IMG/VR virus record: IMGVR_UViG_3300022542_000667
Coordinates: 1-36,519 of that record
Reading direction: 5' to 3' (one strand)
Source of the DNA: a virus
Length of the DNA: 36,519 bases
Shown: piece by piece, positions 9,917 to 36,519 of the stretch
Layout: every line of letters begins with the position of its first letter
Numbering within the stretch: the first letter of the stretch is position 1
The notes under the pieces: generated by a model
Seen by the model: the letters and a program-made list of their open reading frames with translations, nothing else
Told to the model about the DNA's origin: nothing
Database searches by the model: none
Made by a program: the position numbers and the translations under genes

Positions 9917-10465
9917 ATGCCTAAGGAAGGTGGAGCTGGAAGTACCCTGTCTAACTTGGCTGCGCGCCGTCGCATGATTCAGAAGACGCGCGAGAGCCTG
10001 TTTGGCCAGGGCGAGCGTGGAGTTGAGCCCGTACAGCGCCCTATCCCCGGTAGCGTGCCTGCGCAGCCTAAGGAGGGTAGGCGTGGCGCACCAGCGGCTG
10101 GCGAGGAAGGCGTCTCTGATGAAGCTCGCCAGCAGATGATCCAGGAGACAATGACAACCATGGCTCAGATGCAGGCTGGTGGACGCCCGGCGCCGTCCCA
10201 GCAGCGGTATCAGCCACAGCGACCAGAACAGACAATGCTGACCGAGCGTCTCCCATTTTACGGTGCGGAGAACGTCGCGGCCGAGACACAATTCTATCGA
10301 CTGGCGGGTAGACCCCCATCGCCACGCGAGTTGGCTATCTTCCAGTCTCGCATCGAGCTGGAGCGCCAGCTCGGGCGGGTGCCTACGCTTCCTGAGCTAA
10401 AGGCGTACATTTCTCGTGGAGCACCGGCGGGTCCCTCCTACCCCCGCGCGTTTGAGGCAGACTAA
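9917..10465 (+). CDS. Hypothetical virion-associated protein, 182 aa
   Basis: Not recognised. The first half is basic and disordered-looking (Gly, Pro, Arg, Gln rich). The second half has two likely helices (AVENVAAETQFYRLAG-like region at about 115-130 and ELAIFQSRIELERQLGRV at 138-155), with 'PSPRELAIFQSRxELERQLGRVPTLPEL' reading like a compact helical domain. It is sandwiched between a basic micropeptide and the giant protein with overlapping stop/start codons, which suggests they are made together. A small internal head protein is possible. Confidence 0.6.
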   Translation: MPKEGGAGSTLSNLAARRRMIQKTRESLFGQGERGVEPVQRPIPGSVPAQPKEGRRGAPAAGEEGVSDEARQQMIQETMTTMAQMQAGGRPAPSQQRYQPQRPEQTMLTERLPFYGAENVAAETQFYRLAGRPPSPRELAIFQSRIELERQLGRVPTLPELKAYISRGAPAGPSYPRAFEAD

Positions 10466-13400
10466 TGGCCGGACCTTGGGACGTTATCGTAGAGGGCGCT
10501 AAGAAGGTTGGCGGCGGCTTCCAGAAGGCCGGTGAGTATATCTGGCGCGGCGGTAAGTCCGACACCCAGATCTTCGAGTACATCGGTTGGACGTTTGGCC
10601 GGGAGCCTGGGTTCCTCCCAGACGAAGAGGACCTCAAGGGGCAGGCCGAGAGAGCCCTAGAAGCCAAGTCCCCCGAGCAGGCCCGCGCGATCATCGACTC
10701 GATCATTGGCAAAGAGCCCGAAGACGCGATGATCTTGGACATGCTCAAGGACCGTGGGTGGCTGAACGACGTCATCTTCGGGCCGGACCCCGAGGAGGCA
10801 TGGCTTAGCCTCGACCCCTTTACTGAGGGGGGCTACACCTTGTTTGCCTCTGGAGCGATGGGGCAGCAGTACAAGGGCGTTGATCCCTGGATGCTGCACG
10901 ATACGATTATGCAGCAGATGATCGACGACAACCCCCGCCTCCAGTGGGTCTACCTCCGTGATGTTGACCCCCTTGCCCTGATGCCCATTGTGGCTGAGCA
11001 GGACTTGGAGAAAGCTGGCTACGGGGGCTCCAACCGTTGGTATGATCCCATCACGGACCTTGGTGGAAAGATCCTTGGCGGCGCGAAGGAAGCCGGATTG
11101 CGCTTCATCATGATCCCCGAGCGTATCGAGGAGATGGCCGGATGGGCCTACTACCACGATATCCCCGACGACCACATGCGCCTCCAGATGGCCCACAACT
11201 TCTACGAGTACACCTTCAACTTCTGGGACTGGGATAAAACACACGAGACGGGTGCCCGCCATGCCATCGACGAGATCATGGCCAAGGGCCTCCGTGGTAT
11301 GGATGCTGGGGAAGAGCTTGAGAAGTACATGGCGGAGAACCCCATGGGGCTGGCCGCGTCTGTGGGCGACCTGGGGGCCAAGATCCTCTTCGACCCCCTC
11401 TGGCTCCTTCCGATTGGGAATATAGCTAACCTAGCTGTTGGGGTGCCGGTTCGTGGATTGACGGGTGCTCCAAAGTTCGCCCGTATCGCGCGCTTCCTCT
11501 CCCCCGCCGCGCGGCAGGCTGCGAAGAAGGCCCCGAAGGGAGACTACACATGGAAGCAGATCCTTCGGATGGACGAGGCTGCCTACGCTGAGTTCAAAGC
11601 TACCGGCGTCGGCAAGGGCGCGCTGTCCTTCTTGTTCGAGCGGGATCCTGGGGCCTTCGGCCGCCTGACCCGCCGCCAGTTGCAGTTTAGGCTCTCCCCC
11701 CATATCGACGACATTGTAGACGACATCGGGAAGACTGGCGGGAAGCTAATGGATGACCTATTCAGGACCTTCGAGTCCGGGAAGCCCACGGGTTGGGTGA
11801 AGGAACGTATGCCTGGATTGCTCGATGAGGAACCGGTTCTGGCGGACTTTTCGGCCCGTGCCTGTCGCAAGGGAGAATTTAGACTCGCCTCGACAAAGAA
11901 GACAGCCGATGTCGCCGAGGGGGAATTCTGGGCGGATCTTACGCGCGCTAGCGGGTTCGGGGATGAGCTCGGTAAGTTGACCGCAGCGCGTGGTGTGCTG
12001 GGTAACGCCGCACGACAGCAGGCCAAACGGATAGGTGACGACGTGATCCGCGTTGGAGCGAAGGGCGAAAAGGCCAACCCCCTCATGACTAAGCTCGGCA
12101 ACAACATTATAGAGGCAGGGCGTACCGGGAATAAGGTCGCCCTCCAGCAGCACGCCGACGACCTTCTGCGGCTCACGCGCGAGGCACGCGTCGTTACCGT
12201 AGAGAACGCCTTGCTCGACGCGGCCAACATAGCGATGGTCAAGGCCCAGACGGAGATCTTCCGTAGCACCGCAGTAGGCCGGATTCTAGTAGACCGCTGG
12301 ATGCCTGTGGTCGGACACATGCGCCAGCTCATTGCTGGTCTCACCTTGAACAACCCTGGGTTCGTGTGGCTGAACTACGTCAGCAACATGGCCCGGCACA
12401 TGTGGACCTTCGCACGCCATCCGGGCCTAGCAACACGGACCTACTCTCAGTCTATTTTTGCTGAGATGACCGCGGCCTTCCCGAGAGGCGGTAAGTACCC
12501 CGGCTTCTTCACGAGGCGGCTCACCCCCCACCCAGGCTTGACACCGCGTAGAGTAGAGCACTTCATCTCCAGCCAGACCGGTATGCACGAGCTCCTAGGC
12601 GAGCGTATTGCCCGCGGCGAGCTCAGTGCCGGGGAGACTATGGGACTCCTAGCGAAAGAAGCATCCCAACCGATCAAGCGCCTATTCGAGGAACCACGTC
12701 GTCTGTGGGGAATGAATATAGACAAGCTCATGTTCCCCGTCTACACAGCCGGGCGTATGGACTACGCCGCACGACGTGGTGCTTTCTTCGCCTCACTTAG
12801 TGAACAAGGTGGGCTAGCCGCCGTCCCCTCGTGGGTTGCAAAGGGGCCGATGCCACCACTAGCTGCAAGATTAGACGACATTGGTGTCGAGGGCGAGCTA
12901 TCCCGGCGTGTTGAGGGGCAGCTCCTCGATGACTACCGCGCGGTCCTTACGGGGGAGCTTGAGATCCCTGTAGGTCGAACCGCGGAGGAGGTGCTCCTAG
13001 AGCGCGGCTTGGCACGGGCCGATGCCATCGAGAAGGGCGTGGCTTCTGCCGGTGGCTTCTCGGTGACCGACGTTGCCTGGCGCTGGTCGAAGGCCGGGGC
13101 ACCACGTGGGCTGGGTATCGTAGACGACAAGGCTGCGCGCTACGCGCTGAACGACATCTGGCCGATGGCCGACCGCATCCACATGGAGATCCTGGAGCCA
13201 CACTTGAAAGAGGTAATCGCTGGGACACGTAGCTTCCGGTCTCTGTCCCGCATGATCGACGCCTGTACTATGGAATACTACCAGGCCGACGATGTGCTCG
13301 CGCAGATCGGGCGCCTGAACAACATGATGCGTAATCCATCTAGCTACCTCGACGGGCTCCGGTTAAGCAACCGGGTGATGGTCGAGGATATGGCCGACAA

Positions 13401-16398
13401 CTTCCTCCACCTGGAGCGCCACATGCGCCGGGTGCTGGTGGGTTGGGAAAAGAGCCCCCGCAACTGGCGGAAGATCCGCGAGTTCAACCGCCTTGCCGGT
13501 GAGGCCACTGCTGAGCAGGGGAAGCGCCTCGCTAAGATCAACCAGGACTTCTACATGAAGGCCGCCTACGAAGGTAAGGAGTCCGCGGAGCTCACCGATG
13601 ACCTTGCTCGGGCCTGGGATGACTACTTCAAGGCGAAGGACGAGGGCTATAAGGGCCTCCACGACTTCGTGCGTAAGGAGACTGCGGATGTCCTGGGCGA
13701 TGACTACGTGCGGGTCATTGACGATTGGTACGACGAGCTCAGGAAGACTCACCGCGCCCATCGCGCGAACATCCAGGACGCCGCTAAAGAAGGCACAACG
13801 GAAGCCTGGTACATGGCTGGCGAGAAGAACAAGCTCCTCTATGAGAGCAACCGAACAGGGCGCGCAACGACCTTTGGTCATGGTCCAAATGATCCGCCCG
13901 CGGCCCAGCAAGTGTATAACGCACAGGGGCCACTAGCCCAAGAGGTGGACTCCTACGCCACATTCCTCAAGCGGGAGTTGAAAGCTGCGATACCAGATCT
14001 CCAGGCGGGAACACGCACACTTGCAGCCCCCCTTCGGGGAGCGGCTGCGCAGGAGATCAGGACGGCCACACACGAGTTGGTGACCAACTGGAAGGCGTCT
14101 AGCCAGCAGGTCGTAGGCCAGGCGATGGCCAAGACCGACTTCATCATGCTCAACTACAATAACCAGTACGGCTTTGACCGTATGTTCCAGGCGTTCATGC
14201 CCTTCTTCTTCTGGCCTACGCGCGACACGGTGCACTGGGGTATCCGCGCCGCAAGGCAGCCTGGCGCCTTCGTGGGCCTGTGGCAGGCTATGCTCTTCCC
14301 ACGCGGGTACGCGGAGCAATACGGGCTGCCCGAGCGCCTGCAATACGATATTCCTATCTACCTACCGTTCATGGAAGAGGCGCTGGCCAAGGTGCCTATC
14401 GTGAGCGAGATGTTGAGCAACGCCGACTTCAGCCCGCTCTACTTCGTTGACCCTATTCGGCTGGCGTTCCCGTTCACCATGTGGCGCGACCAGTACGAGG
14501 ATGAGCAGCGGCGCGGCACACCGGCTGGTCTTGCGCTCGACTTCATGGAAAACTGGATGCCGATGGCCTCTATCAACCCATTCGCCAAGATCGTCGGCGC
14601 CGAGGTCGGCCTACTGGACAAGAACGCCTGGTCGAGCGTGCAATTCTCCGGCGGCCCCTTTGGGATCCCGCTGTCCGCTACGGGCCTCGCTGCCCAGCGC
14701 TGGCTCTTCGGCGGCGACCTTGATGCCATCCCCGAAGAGGAGATGTACACATACACAGAGAAAGGTCACTTCAGTGTCCCCTTCTTGAGCCGGGTCCTGA
14801 ACATGGAGCCCGACCGCTTCGACGAGTACCGGGCTGAGCGCGCCTGCTGGGCGCTGGCCGCGACCGACGAACTCTTGCCCGGCGAGCCACACGATGTGCA
14901 GGTTCGCGCGGCCATGGAGGCTGTGCGGAACCACAAAGGCAAGGCATGGTATGTGGCCCTGCGTGCGGCGGCGGGCGAGGACTTCCTGCGTATGACTACC
15001 CACTGGATGGGCTTCCCGGTAGGTGGGGTTCGTGGCCTCCAGGAGGGCGAGAGGATCTGGTACGGTCTCCGAACAGCCTACAGCGAGTACGCAGAGCAGG
15101 GGAAGATCGACGAGTTCTTCGAGAAGTACCCCGAGTTCGAGATACGAAGTGCCGTGGTCCGTGGCCTCGGTGATCCAGAGGCGAAGAGGAAGGCTGTCGA
15201 TACAGCCCTCTTCTACGAGGACATCGAGCGCATCGTGGACTCCCCATTCTACGTACCGCTCCAGCGGATCGAGTCGGAGTTGACCTCCCTCGCAGACCTA
15301 ACGCAGACTGACTCGGTGCGCGAGCAGATCAACTTCCTGAAGAAGGAACGGACGGACATGCGGGCGGAGCAGAGCCGCCTCCGTGAGATCGTCCAGAATA
15401 TGTACCCCTACCGAGATACTGAGCTCTCACTCCGGCACCCACCCCGCGACTTCGCGCTGCGCACTATAGACGACGAGTGGTACGCCCTGCGTAGTGAGTG
15501 GTACGAGAACGAGGGCGAGGCCGGGGAATCCTACGAGCACCTGGAGCGCGCCCAAGAGGAGTGGCTCGAGCAATTCCCCGCTTATGGCGCGGGCGGCTAC
15601 GACGAGAAGGGGTGGCAGGATTCCTTCAACGAGTACATGCACCTCACGCTAGAGTATGGCCGGGCCATGCAGTCGGCCGCGCGCGATGAGCGCTGGGACG
15701 ACCGCGACCGGCTGAAGGAAGAGTTGAACGCGAAGCTGACCGCTGCGCACGAGCACTGGAGTCAAGGGCTCACGCGCCGCGATGTGGAGAGCTACTTGGC
15801 CTCACGCCAGCGCCCGAAGACACCCGAGGAGGTTGCGTTCCTACACGCACGCTCCTTGCGGGAGCTGTGGATGGGTTTGGTGAGCAGGGGCTCGCCACTT
15901 ACAAGCCGGGAGAGGGGTGCCATCAGCGACTTCTTCCGCTCACTGCCCGAGATCCAGAAGCACTACCCGTTCAAGGCCGCACCACTTGAGGCGTTCACCA
16001 TCGAGCAGCGGCTAGCCATGTTCCGGCGGGACGAGATCTGGAGCTTCTACTACGGCTTCAGTGACCCCGGCGTCGCCGTGGACTACATGCGGAGCGTCGG
16101 AGATGAGTTGAATGAGATCAATGAGTTCCTCGGTCTGCCCCCACTGCGGCTGATGGACTATCGTATCCCACCGCCCGAGCTGGGCATGGGAGATCCCCTG
16201 GTCGCCCGGATGCAGATGCAGCTCACCGCTATGCGCGAGGCTGGGCTAGAGGGCGAGCCTGGGGAGGCGATGGACCCCGCGTTGCTGGAGGAGTACACGC
16301 AGCTCCTGGCCGCGGATCCTGACGATCCAAGCCCGCTTAGCTCCGGTGACCTTGATTGGCTGCTGAGCCAGTGGAGTGAACCAGAAGAGCGGCCTTGA
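10465..16398 (+). CDS. Giant virion protein, 1977 aa, probable internal/ejection protein
   Basis: At nearly 6 kb this is the largest gene in the window. I recognise no enzymatic domain: there are no polymerase motifs, lysozyme motif or protease triad that I can point to. It is mainly helical and charged, with hydrophobic aromatic segments near residues 626-650 (LNNPGFVWLNYVSNMARHMW) and 1235-1260 (FQAFMPFFFWPTRDTVHWG). A probable coiled coil lies around 1600-1650, and acidic, Trp-rich helices follow to the end. Size and head-cluster location recall the large core/ejection proteins of podoviruses, which line the DNA and build a channel into the cell. A tape-measure role is less likely, because it lies before scaffold and capsid rather than among tail genes. 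The stop codon lies inside the -35 box of the next promoter. Confidence 0.7.
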   Translation: MAGPWDVIVEGAKKVGGGFQKAGEYIWRGGKSDTQIFEYIGWTFGREPGFLPDEEDLKGQAERALEAKSPEQARAIIDSIIGKEPEDAMILDMLKDRGWLNDVIFGPDPEEAWLSLDPFTEGGYTLFASGAMGQQYKGVDPWMLHDTIMQQMIDDNPRLQWVYLRDVDPLALMPIVAEQDLEKAGYGGSNRWYDPITDLGGKILGGAKEAGLRFIMIPERIEEMAGWAYYHDIPDDHMRLQMAHNFYEYTFNFWDWDKTHETGARHAIDEIMAKGLRGMDAGEELEKYMAENPMGLAASVGDLGAKILFDPLWLLPIGNIANLAVGVPVRGLTGAPKFARIARFLSPAARQAAKKAPKGDYTWKQILRMDEAAYAEFKATGVGKGALSFLFERDPGAFGRLTRRQLQFRLSPHIDDIVDDIGKTGGKLMDDLFRTFESGKPTGWVKERMPGLLDEEPVLADFSARACRKGEFRLASTKKTADVAEGEFWADLTRASGFGDELGKLTAARGVLGNAARQQAKRIGDDVIRVGAKGEKANPLMTKLGNNIIEAGRTGNKVALQQHADDLLRLTREARVVTVENALLDAANIAMVKAQTEIFRSTAVGRILVDRWMPVVGHMRQLIAGLTLNNPGFVWLNYVSNMARHMWTFARHPGLATRTYSQSIFAEMTAAFPRGGKYPGFFTRRLTPHPGLTPRRVEHFISSQTGMHELLGERIARGELSAGETMGLLAKEASQPIKRLFEEPRRLWGMNIDKLMFPVYTAGRMDYAARRGAFFASLSEQGGLAAVPSWVAKGPMPPLAARLDDIGVEGELSRRVEGQLLDDYRAVLTGELEIPVGRTAEEVLLERGLARADAIEKGVASAGGFSVTDVAWRWSKAGAPRGLGIVDDKAARYALNDIWPMADRIHMEILEPHLKEVIAGTRSFRSLSRMIDACTMEYYQADDVLAQIGRLNNMMRNPSSYLDGLRLSNRVMVEDMADNFLHLERHMRRVLVGWEKSPRNWRKIREFNRLAGEATAEQGKRLAKINQDFYMKAAYEGKESAELTDDLARAWDDYFKAKDEGYKGLHDFVRKETADVLGDDYVRVIDDWYDELRKTHRAHRANIQDAAKEGTTEAWYMAGEKNKLLYESNRTGRATTFGHGPNDPPAAQQVYNAQGPLAQEVDSYATFLKRELKAAIPDLQAGTRTLAAPLRGAAAQEIRTATHELVTNWKASSQQVVGQAMAKTDFIMLNYNNQYGFDRMFQAFMPFFFWPTRDTVHWGIRAARQPGAFVGLWQAMLFPRGYAEQYGLPERLQYDIPIYLPFMEEALAKVPIVSEMLSNADFSPLYFVDPIRLAFPFTMWRDQYEDEQRRGTPAGLALDFMENWMPMASINPFAKIVGAEVGLLDKNAWSSVQFSGGPFGIPLSATGLAAQRWLFGGDLDAIPEEEMYTYTEKGHFSVPFLSRVLNMEPDRFDEYRAERACWALAATDELLPGEPHDVQVRAAMEAVRNHKGKAWYVALRAAAGEDFLRMTTHWMGFPVGGVRGLQEGERIWYGLRTAYSEYAEQGKIDEFFEKYPEFEIRSAVVRGLGDPEAKRKAVDTALFYEDIERIVDSPFYVPLQRIESELTSLADLTQTDSVREQINFLKKERTDMRAEQSRLREIVQNMYPYRDTELSLRHPPRDFALRTIDDEWYALRSEWYENEGEAGESYEHLERAQEEWLEQFPAYGAGGYDEKGWQDSFNEYMHLTLEYGRAMQSAARDERWDDRDRLKEELNAKLTAAHEHWSQGLTRRDVESYLASRQRPKTPEEVAFLHARSLRELWMGLVSRGSPLTSRERGAISDFFRSLPEIQKHYPFKAAPLEAFTIEQRLAMFRRDEIWSFYYGFSDPGVAVDYMRSVGDELNEINEFLGLPPLRLMDYRIPPPELGMGDPLVARMQMQLTAMREAGLEGEPGEAMDPALLEEYTQLLAADPDDPSPLSSGDLDWLLSQWSEPEERP

Positions 16399-17424: not shown

Positions 17425-18636
17425 ATGTCCGGCACGATGGAAACAATGCGCGTTGCCGGTACAGTTGGTGGGTATCCGAGCGAAATAGACAGCACGTTGA
17501 AAGTGCGATGGGTCGCACCCTTACTAGTCAACATGGCTGAGCGCTCGACGGACCTGCTGAAGTACCTCGGCGGCGTGGAGTCTTTCCAGTACAACAACAC
17601 CAAAATCGAGTGGGTAGAGGATGACCCCTGGAACCGGCGTGTGACCCTTGCGGCCAACATGACCGCCGCGGTGACTACTATGCAGATCACCGGCGCCGCA
17701 CACCGCTTTCCAGTTGGAACCATCTTCCACAACTCAAACCCGAACAGCGCGGGCGTTGCTCACAATGAGTACGTTCGAGTTACCGGTCATGTGGACGCGA
17801 ACAACCTGACCGTTCAGCGCGAGATCGCTGGTGGTGGATCCATGACCGGCGAGACCTGGGCGACTACAGATGAGATTTTCGTGTCTGGTTTCTCCATGCA
17901 CGAGAACGACAACTGGGTCTTTCGGCCGACGAGCATCTTCGCGATGCCGTACAACCACAGCCAGGTCCACTCTGTCGGCGTGCAGGAGTCCTTCCGCCGA
18001 ATGGAGACTGCTATCTATGGACTCCAGGGAAGCGACCTGGACAAGCAGGCTGCCGACACCGTTGCCGAGCAGTTTGTGCTGATGGAGATGGAGGTCGCGC
18101 ACGGCGCCCGCTCCGCAGGTACGTCCAGCATTCCTTCCATGTTCGGTGGCGTCAAGTATTACGTGACTGCGGCTAACGGCGCGCAGATCACGGACTGCGG
18201 TGGCGCGGCCCTGACCCGGAAGGATATCGACGACTTGCTTCAGGCTCTGTACTACTCTGTTGGCGGCGACAAGATGGCCCGCACCATGGTGGTCTCGGCC
18301 TGGGCGAAGAGAAAGATTTCGGCGTTCTTCTCTACGGCAGAGCGCTTGGGTCCTGGCACTCAGGATGCAGGTGTGGTCGTGGATCGGTTGAACACCGACT
18401 TCGGAGTGATCGACATTCTTCTGCACACCGCTGTGCAGCAGGACGAGATCTTGTTCTTGCGGCGCGAGAACCACAAGGTTGGGCACCACGGCACTCTAGG
18501 GCGTCCGCAGCTTCGACAGTTGCCGCCTAGCTCGGCTGGTCCCCGCGTGCAGCAGGCTTTCTACGCGGATCTGTCCATGATCAACAGTGCTCCGCGCTCG
18601 GAAGGTCGCATCTCGAACTTCAGCGTGACCTCGTAG
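17425..18636 (+). CDS. Major capsid protein, SU10/DUF5309-like HK97 fold, 403 aa
   Basis: This forms the icosahedral shell. Following the scaffold gene, the sequence shows features I associate with the SU10-type (DUF5309) capsid family: an N-terminal segment LLKYLGGVESFQYNNTKIEW, an inserted beta-domain (about residues 70-150) with a 'VxVTGHVDANNLTVQRE' strand pair, and a helix containing FRRMETAIYGLQGSDLDKQA. Further on come the pattern DKMARTMVVSAWAKRKISAF and a P-domain stretch TDFGVIDILLHTAVQQDEIL. Length is typical. Translation signals are strong (AGGAGG). No separate maturation protease gene was recognised nearby. Confidence 0.88.
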   Translation: MSGTMETMRVAGTVGGYPSEIDSTLKVRWVAPLLVNMAERSTDLLKYLGGVESFQYNNTKIEWVEDDPWNRRVTLAANMTAAVTTMQITGAAHRFPVGTIFHNSNPNSAGVAHNEYVRVTGHVDANNLTVQREIAGGGSMTGETWATTDEIFVSGFSMHENDNWVFRPTSIFAMPYNHSQVHSVGVQESFRRMETAIYGLQGSDLDKQAADTVAEQFVLMEMEVAHGARSAGTSSIPSMFGGVKYYVTAANGAQITDCGGAALTRKDIDDLLQALYYSVGGDKMARTMVVSAWAKRKISAFFSTAERLGPGTQDAGVVVDRLNTDFGVIDILLHTAVQQDEILFLRRENHKVGHHGTLGRPQLRQLPPSSAGPRVQQAFYADLSMINSAPRSEGRISNFSVTS

Positions 18637-22326: not shown

Positions 22327-22488
22327 ATGCCACAAATAGATCACGATCAGACTTGGGCGAAGCGGCCAGATGGCTCCATGCGCCTAGTGGAGCACAAGGA
22401 AATCGTGCGCCAAGGTTGGAATAGGACCTCGCTCAGGGCGTTATGGCGCCTTCTATTCCGGGGCGAACGCGATAGGGGAACGCGATGA
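22327..22488 (+). CDS. Small hypothetical protein, 53 aa
   Basis: A short frame begins MPQIDHDQTWAKRPDGSMRL and ends WRLLFRGERDRGTR. AGGAGAAA lies just before the ATG at 22327, and the stop overlaps the next ATG by 4 nt (ATGA), the pattern seen at many real junctions here. The gap it fills is 166 bp and otherwise empty. The protein is Trp- and Arg-rich, with a basic C-terminal helix (SLRALWRLLFRGERDR). Function unknown. Confidence 0.6.
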   Translation: MPQIDHDQTWAKRPDGSMRLVEHKEIVRQGWNRTSLRALWRLLFRGERDRGTR

Positions 22489-23087
22489 CTGGCAACGAGC
22501 TAGCTACGCGAGTCGCTGCGCTCTGCCGCGATATTGCGTTTGATGAGAACACGCAGGCTAATTACCTACTCTTCGTGAACGACGCCATAGCAGACCTTCA
22601 TTCTGCCGGGTGGTACACGAAGCTCAACGAAGACGAGGCAACCCCCCTCGTCGCGGGCACCTATGTCTATGACGTACCCGCGACCTTTGTTACCCTCTAC
22701 GAGCTACGTGTAGAGAACACTGACGGTGAGTACGACACAATCATCCCCCGCTGGCAGTGGCGCATCGGTTACGACGGCGACAAGCCACAGGTCTTCCTGG
22801 ACTCGCGCTACTTCACCATGCAGGCCGGGAGGAAGCTCAAGTTCATCGGCCAGTGCCGTTTCGCGGACTGCACTACTGGTGGGACTGTGGACCCACCGAT
22901 CCTCTCCTTCCTACGTGAGCGGGCGGTCTACTACGCGGCCAACGCCCTGATGGCGGGGACCTCAGAGCTAGACCGCGAGCGCGCACGCATCGCCGAGCAA
23001 GCGTGGAACCTCAGTGAGATACTGCTGATGAACGCACCTGACGAGTGCCGGATCCTTGCTGGATCTAAGCTGGTGCCGGGGAGGTAG
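22485..23087 (+). CDS. Head-tail adaptor-like protein, copy 1, 200 aa
   Basis: The protein has an N-terminal helical part (LATRVAALCRDIAFDENTQA, LLFVNDAIADLHSAGWY), a central beta part (AGTYVYDVPATFVTLYELRV) and C-terminal helices. Length and order fit T7 gp11-type adaptor proteins, which form the ring joining portal to tail nozzle. It is clearly paralogous to the next gene: 'NxAxxDLxxAGW', 'ExxxxxVAxTYxYxVPAxF', 'DSRxxTxxAGxxLKxxGQ' and 'FxRERAxxYxAxxLM' align in the same order. Adaptor identity is inferred from arrangement; the duplication is seen directly. Confidence 0.65.
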   Translation: MTGNELATRVAALCRDIAFDENTQANYLLFVNDAIADLHSAGWYTKLNEDEATPLVAGTYVYDVPATFVTLYELRVENTDGEYDTIIPRWQWRIGYDGDKPQVFLDSRYFTMQAGRKLKFIGQCRFADCTTGGTVDPPILSFLRERAVYYAANALMAGTSELDRERARIAEQAWNLSEILLMNAPDECRILAGSKLVPGR

Positions 23088-32142: not shown

Positions 32143-32412
32143 ATGAACGGTGACGAGCTAGGCCAACTACGTGAATACCTCGACGATAGGTTTGGAAACA
32201 TCGACGAGCGTTTCACTGCGTTGGACAAGAGAATCACGGTCAATGCTGAAGAGCGACTGGCCGAGGTCACTAGCATCCGCGACCAACTTGACCGCCACAT
32301 GAAGCGTAACCACGGTGCCGGTAATGCCCAGACGCTAAAGAAAGGCGGCATCGGCGCTATCTTGGCCTCCGCCGCCTACGCTATCTTTGAGATGATCAAG
32401 CGAATGTCCTAG
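32143..32412 (+). CDS. Holin-like protein with coiled coil and one TM segment, 89 aa
   Basis: Residues 1-60 (LGQLREYLDDRFGNIDERFT, LAEVTSIRDQLDRHMKRNHG) are a heptad-rich charged coil, and residues 69-86 (GGIGAILASAAYAIFEMIKR) form one membrane segment followed by a basic end. This coil-then-TM layout is that of XhlA/BhlA-type and related small phage membrane proteins linked to lysis. No endolysin is visible in the window, so the lysis role is inferred. It is the only rightward gene in the right arm. Its TAG stop shares the CTAG tetranucleotide with the stop of the opposing 58-aa gene. Confidence 0.6.
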   Translation: MNGDELGQLREYLDDRFGNIDERFTALDKRITVNAEERLAEVTSIRDQLDRHMKRNHGAGNAQTLKKGGIGAILASAAYAIFEMIKRMS

Positions 32413-32585
32413 TCCTCCGCCCTAACCTCCGGCAGTCTGGATAACGTCCAGCGGTGGGTCCCAAGGGCAACTATGATGGACCAACCATTACGCTTCTGGC
32501 GTCGGCGTGATGTCACCGGCCATCGCTCTAGGAATACGCCAGCCCCGAACCAACCCCGCTGCCAGTGACTAATCTTGAGCCGCAT
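32409..32585 (-). CDS. Small Trp/Arg-rich protein, 58 aa, downstream of PFK
   Basis: Immediately after the phosphofructokinase stop (TAG then ATG with no gap) a frame encodes MRLKISHWQRGWFGAGVFLE and ends in SIIVALGTHRWTLSRLPEVR plus AED. GGAGG within the last PFK codons lies 8 nt ahead of the ATG, so translation would follow from PFK. It fills the otherwise empty 180 bp before the holin-like gene, whose stop it overlaps. It has five tryptophans and a basic middle. No family recognised; it may be a subunit or regulator made together with PFK. Confidence 0.6.
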   Translation of the reverse strand: MRLKISHWQRGWFGAGVFLERWPVTSRRRQKRNGWSIIVALGTHRWTLSRLPEVRAED

Positions 32586-33602
32586 CTAGTCTTCCTCCCA
32601 TCCTGCTACTCGCACACCAGTGTCTACTAGATCCGCGATTGTCTTCCGCGGCATCTCGCGCTGCTGCCCGGCCATTGTCTTTAGCGGCTGGCGCCGTAGC
32701 TCCCCAGCAAAGTAAGCCGGGACTATTAGGGTCAGCCCATCCTCTAGACAGACTAGGGCCTCAGTGGCGTAAACCCGCCCAAGCTCCATGTCGTCCTCCA
32801 CCGGGAGGGCGCCGTTCTGGAGATGCCCTAGGACTAACGTCCGCACGTTAGCGCCGCGCGCGCCGAACTCGTTGGCCAACCGGTCGGCAAGGTGGCGTTG
32901 GTACAACAGCTCATTCCCGTAAGAGTCGAGCGCCACTGGGAGATCCATGTCTCCGTTGTGGATGTGTGCCCCCTCTGAGATAACGATGACACCACCACCT
33001 GTCAAGAAGTGGTCCGGGGTACAAGGAACCTCAGGGAGGGCTACCTGGCTAGCGTCTTCGCCCCCGTGGGCCGCGAGCCAGCCAGTCCTACGGCCCATGA
33101 CCTCGATAATGTAGGTGCGCTCCATTGAGCGGGCGACGGCCCCAATGTCCGCGACAGCACGCTTGATCACTGCCACAGCGGTCGAGAAGCCAATGCTAGT
33201 ATCGCACCCCGGCAGGTCATTGTCGATGGTCTTGGGGATCCCGACGATGGGGATCCCGTTGGAGTATTCCTCGTGTAACGCCAGCGCTGTTGCCAGGGTA
33301 TCGTTACCCCCGATGGCGATGAGGCCGTCCATCTTCTTATCGTCGAGACGGTGGATGATCCTTATCATAGCCACCATGCTGCCCCTTGGGTTCCACCGGG
33401 ATGTACCCAACACCGTCCCCGGCGCCCAAGGGTTGAGCATCCCAGAGGACAGCGGCATGAAGTACCCATCGTGGAGGCCCCGCCAGCCACCGCGGATCCC
33501 GTAGAGCGTATGGCCATGGAGCTCGCTAAGAATAGCTAGCCGGTGTATAGCACTGTTGACACCAGGGGCCACGCCCCCGCCGGTCAGGACTGCAATTCGC
33601 AT
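32586..33602 (-). CDS. 6-phosphofructokinase family protein, PPi-type signature, 338 aa
   Basis: Phosphofructokinase makes fructose 1,6-bisphosphate, the committed step of glycolysis. Family motifs: GGGVAPGVNSAIH (8-20), LGTSR (65-69), GGNDT (98-102), PKTIDNDLPGCDTSIG (123-138) with catalytic Asp127, R162, MGRRTG (169-174), SEG (209-211) and R254/H260. Asp101 and Lys124 are the residues that mark pyrophosphate-using enzymes (ATP enzymes have Gly and usually Gly). Oddities: Asp is replaced by Val11 in the first loop and by Asn100 at a metal-binding position, and the usual QRGG is QNGA (Asn263 for a substrate-binding Arg). Activity may be changed. AGGAGG is 7 nt upstream. It is a probable phage auxiliary metabolic gene. 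Confidence 0.85.
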   Translation of the reverse strand: MRIAVLTGGGVAPGVNSAIHRLAILSELHGHTLYGIRGGWRGLHDGYFMPLSSGMLNPWAPGTVLGTSRWNPRGSMVAMIRIIHRLDDKKMDGLIAIGGNDTLATALALHEEYSNGIPIVGIPKTIDNDLPGCDTSIGFSTAVAVIKRAVADIGAVARSMERTYIIEVMGRRTGWLAAHGGEDASQVALPEVPCTPDHFLTGGGVIVISEGAHIHNGDMDLPVALDSYGNELLYQRHLADRLANEFGARGANVRTLVLGHLQNGALPVEDDMELGRVYATEALVCLEDGLTLIVPAYFAGELRRQPLKTMAGQQREMPRKTIADLVDTGVRVAGWEED

Positions 33603-33613
33603 TTCTGGGCCTC

Positions 33614-34036
33614 CTATCTCAGCCAGCCTAACTTCGGACTCAACCGCCCCTCATCTTCGATACACCCTGGGCAATAGTAGCCAAGGGCACTACCCTCCAG
33701 AACCTCGGGCATCATGTGTATGAAACAAAAGGGTCTGGGTTCTTCTCGATGTGCCTCCTCCCATACAGGCGAGATCGGGAAGTTCTTCTCGATGATCCGT
33801 ACCATCTCATCCAGGATACGGTACTCGTACCGGTCGGCGTAGTACCGTTTCTCTACGCAGATCTGCTCTAGTAGCTCCCGCGCCTCCTGGCTCAAGGTGC
33901 GGCACCAGATGGAGCGGGTGCCCCATGGCCCACGGCCCATGACCTCAATGTCGTACTTGATCAAGGTCCCAGCGAAAGGTCTAGGCGCCAAGACGCCCCG
34001 GCGCTCCCTGAGGACATTAGGGTCTTGCTTACTCAC
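33614..34036 (-). CDS. Hypothetical protein, 140 aa, GTG start
   Basis: Not recognised. It begins VSKQDPNVLRERRGVLAPRP, has a charged helical centre (SQEARELLEQICVEKRYYAD, YRILDEMVRIIEKNF) and near its end CFIHMM and YYCPGCIEDEG, where three cysteines and a histidine could bind zinc. The GTG at 34036 overlaps the upstream stop (GTGA); AGGAGG is 12 nt upstream. It lies directly before the PFK gene with an 11-nt gap, so the two are probably cotranscribed. Confidence 0.65.
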   Translation of the reverse strand: MSKQDPNVLRERRGVLAPRPFAGTLIKYDIEVMGRGPWGTRSIWCRTLSQEARELLEQICVEKRYYADRYEYRILDEMVRIIEKNFPISPVWEEAHREEPRPFCFIHMMPEVLEGSALGYYCPGCIEDEGRLSPKLGWLR

Positions 34037-34485
34037 GGCAATATCAGCCCTCCTTCCGTGCGCTTCTCCAATTCCATGTCGCTCGGCAGAATAATACCGG
34101 ATTTCGTTTCTTCGGGCGCCCCCAAGGGCTCATAGCGTTGGGCTGGGCGCACGTAAACGCTACCATCAGGTTGTGGCTCCACCTCGCAGCCCCAACCTAG
34201 AAAGAGTCCTTTCACCAGCTCCCAACGGATCTCTTTCGAGAATCCGTTAATCAGGTCCAGGAGGAAACCGATGATAAACGGCTCATATGTATAACCCATA
34301 TGTACCAGTACCTCCGCGCACGTCTTGGCCCACAGACTCCAATCGTCTTCTGCGGCCACCCTGAAAGTCGCGTCAATATGCCTATGTACCGGTGGGGTTT
34401 CTGGAGTATGCAGCCTAATACGAACTTGTGGCTGCTGCCGTTCACAACCAGTAGAGCGATGCTTGTTAGGATCTCGTTTTCGCAT
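34033..34485 (-). CDS. Hypothetical protein, 150 aa
   Basis: Not recognised. The N-terminal 35 residues are basic and extended. Residues 45-105 (WSLWAKTCAEVLVHMGYTYE, FIIGFLLDLINGF, IRWELVKGLFLGWGCEV) are helical. The C-terminus carries two similar short units, KSGIILPSDMEL and EGGLILP. The start at 34485 is set by GGAGG 4 nt upstream, which itself lies inside the HNH gene; the two genes overlap by 20 nt. Followed by the GTGA overlap to the next gene. Confidence 0.6.
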   Translation of the reverse strand: MRKRDPNKHRSTGCERQQPQVRIRLHTPETPPVHRHIDATFRVAAEDDWSLWAKTCAEVLVHMGYTYEPFIIGFLLDLINGFSKEIRWELVKGLFLGWGCEVEPQPDGSVYVRPAQRYEPLGAPEETKSGIILPSDMELEKRTEGGLILP

Positions 34486-34900
34486 TGCGCCTCCGTTCTC
34501 GACTGTGAATACGATTACACGCACGACAGCCACGCGCCCCAGTAGGGTAAATATAGGTATTCTGTTCGTCATAAGGGTGCCCCTGTGGGCAATGAGTTTT
34601 ACTTGTTTGAAACCGCACTGCCCCCAACCCAATGCCCACACCGCGCGAAAGGTTCTCTCGGCATGTTACCAGCTCCATGTGCGCTGGGTTGACGCAGGCC
34701 CTGTTCCGACAGAGGTGGTCGATCTGGAGCCAGGAGGGGATGGGGCCGACAAGCTGTCGATAGGCGAAACGATGCGCTCTGTGGGCGGACCCACAGCACC
34801 AGAAGTTTCCATAACCATCACAGAAACATCCCGCCTGCCACACCCAGCATCCCGTCGCTGGGTCCGCTCTGACCTTAGCCCAAAACCTATCCCAGATCAC
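34466..34900 (-). CDS. HNH homing endonuclease, copy 1, 144 aa
   Basis: The pattern CWVWQAG...DGYGNF...AHRFAYRQLVGPIP, then LQIDHLCRNRACVNPAHMEL and VTCRENLSRG, is the HNH_3-type phage endonuclease: His-Asn-His of the beta-beta-alpha-metal fold with CxN zinc ligands. A second zinc site follows in KTHCPQGHPYDE...CRAC. The basic C-terminus probably contacts DNA. It starts at GTG (34900), overlapping the PQ-loop gene as GTGA, and its last 20 nt carry the start and ribosome site of the next gene. Paralogous to the HNH gene at 35539-35970, including at nucleotide level. Confidence 0.88.
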   Translation of the reverse strand: MIWDRFWAKVRADPATGCWVWQAGCFCDGYGNFWCCGSAHRAHRFAYRQLVGPIPSWLQIDHLCRNRACVNPAHMELVTCRENLSRGVGIGLGAVRFQTSKTHCPQGHPYDEQNTYIYPTGARGCRACNRIHSRERRRNAKTRS

Positions 34901-35151
34901 CGAGACTTCCTCCGCATGTAGTAGATACTAGCGGCCACGCAGATAGACGAGAGAGCGTTGGCGATAGCGCCTGACCACCAGCCGGTTAGGGCAGCACCAA
35001 GGGCCAGCGCTATGACAGCGACGAACAGGCAGCTCCAGGCGAAGACGTTGAACCCCACCACACGGGGCGTCCTGATGAGCGAGATGAGCTGGGGGCCATA
35101 AAAGAGCATCAGCCCCACAGTGCCTACCCACCCGAACAGGTTAGCTAGCAT
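34897..35151 (-). CDS. PQ-loop/SemiSWEET-like three-helix membrane protein, 84 aa
   Basis: Three hydrophobic segments (about 4-24, 36-56, 60-79) and the motif FYGPQLISLIRT with Pro20-Gln21 place it in the PQ-loop superfamily; SemiSWEET sugar transporters are of this size and topology and work as dimers. The stretch RTPRVVGFNVFAW after the PQ helix, and GAIANAL with Asn65 in the third helix, match the SemiSWEET pattern. The Trp usually found in the second helix before the YG turn is not present (Ala there), so the substrate is uncertain. AAGGAGG 5 nt upstream fixes the ATG at 35151. It sits in the same leftward run as PFK. Confidence 0.62.
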   Translation of the reverse strand: MLANLFGWVGTVGLMLFYGPQLISLIRTPRVVGFNVFAWSCLFVAVIALALGAALTGWWSGAIANALSSICVAASIYYMRRKSR

Positions 35152-35153
35152 GG

Positions 35154-35558
35154 CTACCTCCTTATCGCGGGCATCTTGTCTTTCTGCCATACTACCTTCT
35201 GCTGGCAGTGTGGGCAGACCCAGATGACCGCGGACTTCCCTGCGACCTGCTCCCGCCAGTCAGCGGGGGCGCCGAGGATCTCGATACCCGGCTGTTCGAG
35301 GATCCACTGGGCACTCCGCTCACCCACTAGGCGGAAGGTATCTTCGTTGCAACCCCAGCAAGTGACACCGGTATCGACGCTATCTATCAAGAGACCCCGC
35401 TGGTCCGGCTCTGCCTGGGGGCCTTCGGTGACCTCTAACTTCACATAGCGCCAGGGACTCTCGGGTATAGCGTCTGGATCGCGCGGATGATGCCCAGGCG
35501 TCCAGACGTGCCGCCGGTCAATAGCCCGTCTTTTCTGGCTAGGGTGTATCGTGCCCAT
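35154..35558 (-). CDS. Zinc-ribbon-like hypothetical protein, 134 aa
   Basis: Two cysteine pairs, CWGC (67-70) and CPHC (115-118), spaced by about 45 residues, could form one zinc site as in ribbon domains with a long insert. The N-terminal 40 residues are basic, with several His and Arg. No family recognised. GGAGGAGAAGG lies ahead of the ATG at 35558, within the end of the HNH gene (20-nt overlap). The gene ends 2 nt before the PQ-loop protein starts, and their ribosome site AAGGAGG overlaps its last codons, so they are probably coupled. Confidence 0.65.
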   Translation of the reverse strand: MGTIHPSQKRRAIDRRHVWTPGHHPRDPDAIPESPWRYVKLEVTEGPQAEPDQRGLLIDSVDTGVTCWGCNEDTFRLVGERSAQWILEQPGIEILGAPADWREQVAGKSAVIWVCPHCQQKVVWQKDKMPAIRR

Positions 35559-35970
35559 GTCGCCTTCTCCTCCACCTCCGCATGGCCTCTCGCTTGCACG
35601 TCCGACAATACCTCCCGCCGCGAGACCGATAGGTATTCGCCTCATCGTAGGGGTGACCCCGAGGGCAATGGGTCTTAGCTCGCTGGCGGATAGCGCCTGC
35701 CTGACCTACCAGGCCACGCCGACAATTCTCTTGATGCGCTACCAACTCCATGTGCGCCGGGTTCACGCAAGCCGGGTTTCGACACAGGTGGTCAATCTCT
35801 AGCCAGCTAGGAATAGAGCCAACGAGCATCCGATAGGCTAGGCGATGTGCCCGGAGGCTACAGCCTACGAATTTGAAATGCCCATAGCCATCAGAGTCGC
35901 GGCGCGCAGTCCACACCCAGCACCCAGTCTCTGGGTTCTCTTTAACCTTAATCCAGAAGCGGTCCCACAT
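35539..35970 (-). CDS. HNH homing endonuclease, copy 2, 143 aa
   Basis: Same architecture as the HNH gene at 34466-34900: CWVWTARRDSDGYGHF, AHRLAYRMLVGSIPSWLEID, HLCRNPACVNPAHMEL, KTHCPRGHPYDEANTY and a CRTCK end, followed by an Arg-rich tail. The catalytic HNH residues and both zinc sites are intact. The ATG at 35970 (AAGGAC 4 nt upstream) is preferred over one at 35991, which lies inside the previous gene. Its last 20 nt include the ribosome site and ATG of the zinc-ribbon gene. Confidence 0.88.
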   Translation of the reverse strand: MWDRFWIKVKENPETGCWVWTARRDSDGYGHFKFVGCSLRAHRLAYRMLVGSIPSWLEIDHLCRNPACVNPAHMELVAHQENCRRGLVGQAGAIRQRAKTHCPRGHPYDEANTYRSRGGRYCRTCKREAMRRWRRRRHGHDTP

Positions 35971-35971
35971 A

Positions 35972-36519
35972 TCAGTCCTTTGTCCCCACATAGACTGCCG
36001 GATCCAAGGCGATTCCGGTTCGATCTAGGTGTGCGACAGGATACCCGAGCTGGCACAGGCTCTTCAGCTTACGGTCCAACGGCACATCTATATCATGCTC
36101 TAGTATGTGACCATCGTCGTGGCCAGAGAGAAGAGCCATCTGCCACCAGTGAGTCTTGAGCTCCTGCACGTCCTTAGCGCCCGCATTCAACAGGCTCACC
36201 TGGGCTACCTCGACGATATCTCGAACAAGACCGAAGACCTGATGGTAGAAACAGTCAGTTATCGCACTAGGATGCGCACACCACCGGCCATACTGGGTCC
36301 GCGAACGCCGCTGCTCCAGGTGTATGGTCTTCTCCATTGCACACCAAGCGCGAATTGCGGGGAGCTTCTTGTCCAGTACCTCCCGCACGAACATCTCGGG
36401 TTGCTCCACACAGAGAGCCACGTTCGAGAAGTGCCGCAGCAAAGCGCCGTAGTCCTGATCTAAGACCACCCACATCAGGAGCGGGGCCACCTTGTCCCGT
36501 GGGAGTTCCAGTAGCTCGC
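35972..36519 (-). CDS. Partial hypothetical protein, truncated by the window end
   Basis: The frame is open to the right edge (reading ELLELPRDKVAPLLMWVVLD at the edge), so its start is outside the window; a GTG at 36490 is unlikely to be the real start because coding signal continues upstream. About 182 residues are visible: helical, with many Leu, Glu and His (KKLPAIRAWCAMEKTIHLEQ, VFGLVRDIVEVAQVSLLNAG, THWWQMALLSGHDDGHILEH). The cluster HDDGHILEHD is His/Asp-rich and could bind metal. No family recognised. It is followed after 1 nt by HNH copy 2. Confidence 0.6.
   Translation of the reverse strand, partial: ELLELPRDKVAPLLMWVVLDQDYGALLRHFSNVALCVEQPEMFVREVLDKKLPAIRAWCAMEKTIHLEQRRSRTQYGRWCAHPSAITDCFYHQVFGLVRDIVEVAQVSLLNAGAKDVQELKTHWWQMALLSGHDDGHILEHDIDVPLDRKLKSLCQLGYPVAHLDRTGIALDPAVYVGTKD

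Follow-up and report, generated by a model that had tools for sequence, protein, structure and literature searches.

What a phosphofructokinase (PFK) homologue does on a phage genome, and whether it works together with a small membrane protein encoded nearby, is the question raised by the right end of the virus record IMGVR_UViG_3300022542_000667 (the window; 36,519 bases, analysed over its full length), which is occupied by a run of leftward genes. An initial annotation had read this end as a sugar-metabolism cassette, formed by a pyrophosphate (PPi)-type PFK and a PQ-loop protein resembling the SemiSWEET sugar transporters. On balance, and with a confidence only a little above even, the PFK gene, which lies near the distal end of the run, was assigned as an auxiliary metabolic gene whose product is a PFK of the PPi type, short and divergent. 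The coordinates of the genes are collected in Table 1.

The PFK homologue was matched by PF00365 over positions 1-274 of the 277 of the profile (202.2 bits against a cut-off of 30.9; E 1.4e-59) and by the PHROG 9896 family, annotated as 'phosphofructokinase' (E 4.5e-33). Its AlphaFold model (pLDDT 79, pTM 0.80) was aligned with E. coli PfkA (1pfk_A) over 303 residues (Z 33.6, rmsd 2.6) and with the archaeal PPi-PFK 9cis (Z 32.7), and the first fold from outside the PFKs followed only at Z 9.1. The protein is a full-length member of the PF00365 superfamily with a predicted two-domain PFK fold, and the family assignment made in the initial annotation was upheld.

PPi-dependent PFKs carry three donor signatures: an Asp that replaces Gly in GGDG, the Lys of PKTIDXD, and, at position 108, any residue bulkier than Gly (PMC12203962). 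The window protein and its homologue in a related phage (described below) have GGND with the PPi-type Asp104, PKTIDND with the PPi-type Lys124, and Thr108 in place of Gly (E. coli numbering); GGDG and P-G-TIDND, which mark the ATP-dependent PfkA enzymes, were found in neither. All three signatures point to PPi, which is the likely phosphate donor as judged from these residues.

Head and packaging genes, coding for a terminase and for a major capsid protein and an adaptor that are both of the SU10 type, are located to the left of the run. Scans of viral contigs with the PFK, the PQ-loop protein, the terminase, a 666-residue gene product, the capsid protein and ORF35154 returned one relative, IMGVR_UViG_3300009034_000020, and no further one; its head genes are likewise of the SU10 type, and its terminase and capsid protein are 80 % and 96 % identical to those of the window phage. 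The ends of the relative's record share an overlap of 120 bases that ends in one N; joined there, they give a circular genome of 72,696 bp. The terminal N probably hid the circularity from end-repeat detection. In that record the PFK and PQ-loop genes stand at opposite ends, and closure of the circle restores the gene order of the window. On the same strand the relative encodes a fusion of uracil-DNA glycosylase (UDG) with DNA polymerase A, RecA, a helicase of the DnaB type and further genes for replication and repair; since these also belong to the circle, the window represents about half of such a genome. Nearly the whole genome shared by the two phages is collinear. With head and terminase genes in the window and the same gene in a circular relative, the PFK is carried on a bona fide phage, and the PFK and PQ-loop genes belong to a real tailed phage and not to host contamination. 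The claim that a phage genome carries a PFK of the PPi type, as read from the donor signatures, was thus borne out.

Between the two phages the PFK is 67 % identical (dN/dS 0.22) and the PQ-loop protein 68 % identical (dN/dS 0.20); for comparison, the dN/dS of the large virion and packaging genes is 0.07-0.17. These values indicate that both genes are under purifying selection in both phages. The GC content at third codon positions (GC3) is 0.72 for the PFK gene and 0.75 for the PQ-loop gene, the same as in the phage's own genes, so that both appear to be long resident.

A phage PFK as such is already known. The gene is described in the Azotobacter phage TayeBlu (PMC12772287), in rumen viromes (PMC5704599) and in marine viromes (PMC4053976), where, according to the excerpts of these papers, it is likewise proposed to redirect glycolytic flux. 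The same excerpts, compared by description only, contain no mention of PPi-type signatures, of a lost Arg252 or of a linked PQ-loop gene. Phage PFKs have so far been read as boosters of an ATP-consuming commitment to glycolysis; a phage PFK of the PPi type would, if real, work on a different principle, reversible and sparing of ATP, and linked to a bulk by-product of phage replication.

Cellular homologues were 34-42 % identical at best and were spread across Actinomycetota, Chloroflexota and Planctomycetota; no close cellular source of the gene was found among the sampled genomes, including two genome scans with PFK patterns. The phage proteins share with the short PF00365 PPi-PFKs of these three phyla their length, fold, Asp104, Lys124 and catalytic residues, and differ from them in having GGND instead of GG(D/E)D, GGV instead of GGD, QN or QC instead of QR at position 252, and a very long branch. 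In the tree the two phage PFKs form one clade, whose stem measures 3.16 changes per site. The clade falls, with weak placement, among the short PPi-PFKs of Chloroflexota (support 80/87, long branch); this placement is too weak for the host of the phage to be taken from it. Other IMG/VR PFKs with the motif IPKTIDN (L011-L015) were 25-31 % identical. PFK matches in the phage collection were not counted as phage PFKs, since nearly all lie on unannotated metagenome or bacterial contigs. In two IMG/VR records (L012:5977-7218 and L014:5974-7194) a clostridial PPi-PFK gene stands directly beside an integrase-like gene; these are probably host genes at prophage borders, which might be mistaken for metabolic genes of viruses.

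For the active site, the two phage PFKs were aligned with 36 cellular homologues. Both phages retain Arg72, Lys124, Asp127, Asp129, Arg162, Met169, Arg171, Glu222, Arg243 and His249. Several observations nevertheless weigh against a PPi-PFK acting on fructose 6-phosphate (F6P). Arg252, present in 36 of the 36 cellular homologues, is Asn in the window protein and Cys in the relative, and both phage proteins also have Val for Asp12 and Asn for Asp/Glu103. The F6P-contacting arginines of E. coli PFK are 162, 243 and 252, of which Arg252 contacts the 6-phosphate; in the phages 162 and 243 are kept and 252 is lost, which leaves the set incomplete. Since Arg252 is an F6P contact, the substrate may be other than F6P, or F6P may be bound with poor affinity. 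The long phage branch fits an altered function, and the lineage is known from two genomes. The Lys of PKTIDXD is by itself no proof of PPi use, as one ATP-dependent enzyme shares it (PMC12203962). Asn103 was considered as a sign of inactivation and dropped, since long clostridial PPi-PFKs likewise have GGND. As far as the alignment goes, the protein is best described as a PFK superfamily member with PPi signatures and not as a proven F6P kinase, and its sugar-phosphate substrate is uncertain.

Two other functions can be drawn from the same residues. The PFK fold may have been turned into a PPi-using kinase with a different sugar phosphate as its substrate, such as sedoheptulose 7-phosphate, the product of which would enter pentose and nucleotide synthesis. 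This is unlikely, even though Arg252, Asp12 and Asp/Glu103 are lost in both phages with the remaining site kept, the long branch is combined with purifying selection within the phage lineage, and sedoheptulose 7-phosphate is also phosphorylated by some PPi-PFKs, according to excerpts of two papers (PMC12203962, PMC7029132); the substitutions indicate no named substrate, and long branches arise from fast phage evolution alone. That the PFK is catalytically weak or inactive and is retained for something else, such as interfering with host PFK tetramers by binding to them or sensing the metabolite state, is very improbable: a near-invariant arginine (Arg252) and Asp12 are indeed lost, but Asp127, Asp129, Lys124, Asp104 and the other site residues listed above are all kept, which is unusual for a pseudoenzyme. 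The loss of Arg252 in both phages, in an otherwise intact site, offers a testable example of how a metabolic enzyme can move away from its cellular role once carried by a virus.

If the gene codes for a PPi-type PFK, as we favour, the enzyme would be made together with the replication proteins, presumably early, as the relative's run also holds replication genes. It would use PPi to phosphorylate a sugar phosphate, for which F6P is the first candidate, in a reversible reaction that spends no ATP. DNA synthesis releases one PPi per nucleotide, so that each copying of the 72.7-kb genome frees about 145,000 (2 x 72,696), and a PFK active at that time could draw down PPi and push carbon into lower glycolysis; in the reverse direction it could send carbon towards pentoses. 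The locus thus suggests that phages may tap the pyrophosphate freed by their own DNA copying. A broader proposal is that this lineage remodelled a PPi-PFK to spend replication PPi on a sugar phosphate, possibly not F6P, and so coupled genome copying to carbon flux without ATP; we regard it as tentative and rather doubtful.

The second part of the question concerns the PQ-loop protein. It scored just under the PF04193 cut-off of 22, as did its counterpart in the relative (18.4 bits, E 0.0018, and 21.3 bits, E 0.00023, respectively), and MtN3_slv (PF03083) gave no match up to E 1 for the window protein or 0.05 for that of the relative. In a profile-profile comparison, the two-phage profile was aligned by hhalign with a set of clear PQ-loop and SemiSWEET proteins (96 %, E 1.5e-9), which supports membership of the clan. 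The model has low confidence (pLDDT 64), with helices at residues 2-27, 31-55 and 57-83 and the PQ pair at residues 20-21; among its structural matches, the SemiSWEETs 4rng (Z 6.5, rmsd 3.8, 81 residues aligned) and 4qnc (Z 6.0, rmsd 4.1, 80 residues aligned) stood amid unrelated helical bundles. The defining features of SemiSWEETs are a match to MtN3_slv, the PQ pair, Trp48 and Asn64 in the pocket and Tyr51 in the gate, and replacement of the pocket Trp or Asn by Ala markedly reduces uptake (PMC5972207). The phage proteins keep the PQ pair and the pocket Asn (N65); Trp48 is Leu in both phages, Tyr51 is Gly and Thr13 is Leu. Compared with SemiSWEETs (PF03083; PDB 4qnc, 4x5m, 9kax), the phage protein is alike in its size of about 85 residues, its three helices, the PQ pair of the first transmembrane helix (TM1) and the Asn of TM3, but lacks an MtN3_slv match and the equivalents of Trp48, Tyr51, Thr13, Asp32 and Ser34. 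No match was found in the phage or plasmid collections, and those in Chloroflexota were only remote. From these comparisons the protein appears best called a member of the PQ-loop clan (CL0141) with no substrate assigned, a distant cousin of the sugar transporters; of the proposed SemiSWEET-like transporter, the fold clan stood, but the pocket Trp48, the gate Tyr51 and the MtN3_slv match are missing. It probably represents a small transporter or another kind of membrane protein that travels with the PFK, and not a demonstrated sugar importer.

The two genes had been proposed to act as one unit, the PQ-loop protein admitting hexose and the PFK burning it. They are separated by 1.3 kb in the window and about 1 kb in the relative, on one strand, and the order ORF35972 - ORF35154 - PQ-loop - ORF34033 - ORF33614 - PFK is identical in both phages. 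Because most of the shared genome is equally collinear, this adjacency is little evidence of a joint function. A Chloroflexota prophage (L056/L076) has a clear PQ-loop gene, in a prophage-like region with an integrase-type recombinase and virion-type genes, and no PFK within the 38 kb read; unlike the phage protein, its product is over both the PQ-loop and the MtN3_slv cut-offs. The prophage gene (L056:1498-1758; G358:C1:1019358-1019618) codes for an 86-residue SemiSWEET-like protein and overlaps a dATP/dGTP diphosphohydrolase gene. No PQ-loop ORF was found in the other PFK-bearing loci fetched, most of which span just 3-8 kb, and no sugar kinase in the gene run or among the relative's scanned proteins. 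Only sugars that carry a phosphate beforehand are substrates of PFK. A single sugar-uptake module is therefore improbable, despite the proximity of two genes that are each under purifying selection, the alignment with SemiSWEETs and the location of several bacterial SemiSWEETs in carbohydrate operons (PMC5972207). Among open-licence papers, no description was found of a phage SemiSWEET or of a PFK and PQ-loop pair.

Table 1. Genes of the right-end run and SU10-type head genes of the window.
Feature	Coordinates	Strand	Basis
SU10-type major capsid protein	17425-18636
SU10-type adaptor	22485-23087
Phosphofructokinase homologue, 338 aa	32586-33602	-	PF00365, PHROG 9896, predicted fold, active-site alignment
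Protein without assigned function; N-terminal part about 48 % identical in relative	33614-34036	-
Conserved protein, no named function; 66 % identity over 138 aa in relative	34033-34485	-
HNH endonuclease, absent from relative; GC3 below neighbours	34466-34900	-	PF13392, PHROG 826
Three-helix PQ-loop clan protein, 84 aa	34897-35151	-	PQ pair and Asn of TM3 present, Trp of TM2 absent
Conserved protein, 72 % identical in relative; two CxxC pairs, no family match	35154-35558	-
Second HNH endonuclease, 64 % identical to first, absent from relative	35539-35991	-
C-terminal part of conserved protein, cut by window end; 399 aa in relative	35972-36519	-

From the PFK gene to the right end all genes run leftward and mostly overlap or abut, as had been noted in the initial annotation. 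Strong ribosome-binding sites precede the ATG codons of the PFK gene (AGGAGG) and the PQ-loop gene (AAGGAGG). For two of the listed ORFs, 35154-35645 and 34033-34641, homology with the relative begins only at 35558 and 34485, respectively, and these inner positions are probably the true starts. For ORF 32409-32585, which may not be a gene, the relative has no corresponding reading frame. The PQ-loop region is flanked by the two HNH endonuclease genes; since both are missing from the relative and lower in GC3, they are probably mobile insertions that lie outside any cassette.

Elsewhere in the window, the head module is SU10-like and almost no other virion proteins were recognisable. The window gave no match to a defence family, an RNA family or a tRNA. 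A protein of 1,977 residues (10465-16398) is 67 % identical in the relative and has no PHROG or Pfam match. The left end (1-170) is C-rich and of low complexity, with 83 % GC against 60 % overall, and is probably an assembly artefact. In the relative, one gene (L006:4116-6716, minus strand) joins the UDG domain to a DNA polymerase of family A that has a 3'-5' exonuclease, and an 8-oxoguanine DNA glycosylase-like gene (Ogg-HhH) was found at L007:12654-13349 (minus strand), so that two base-excision enzymes are encoded by one phage.

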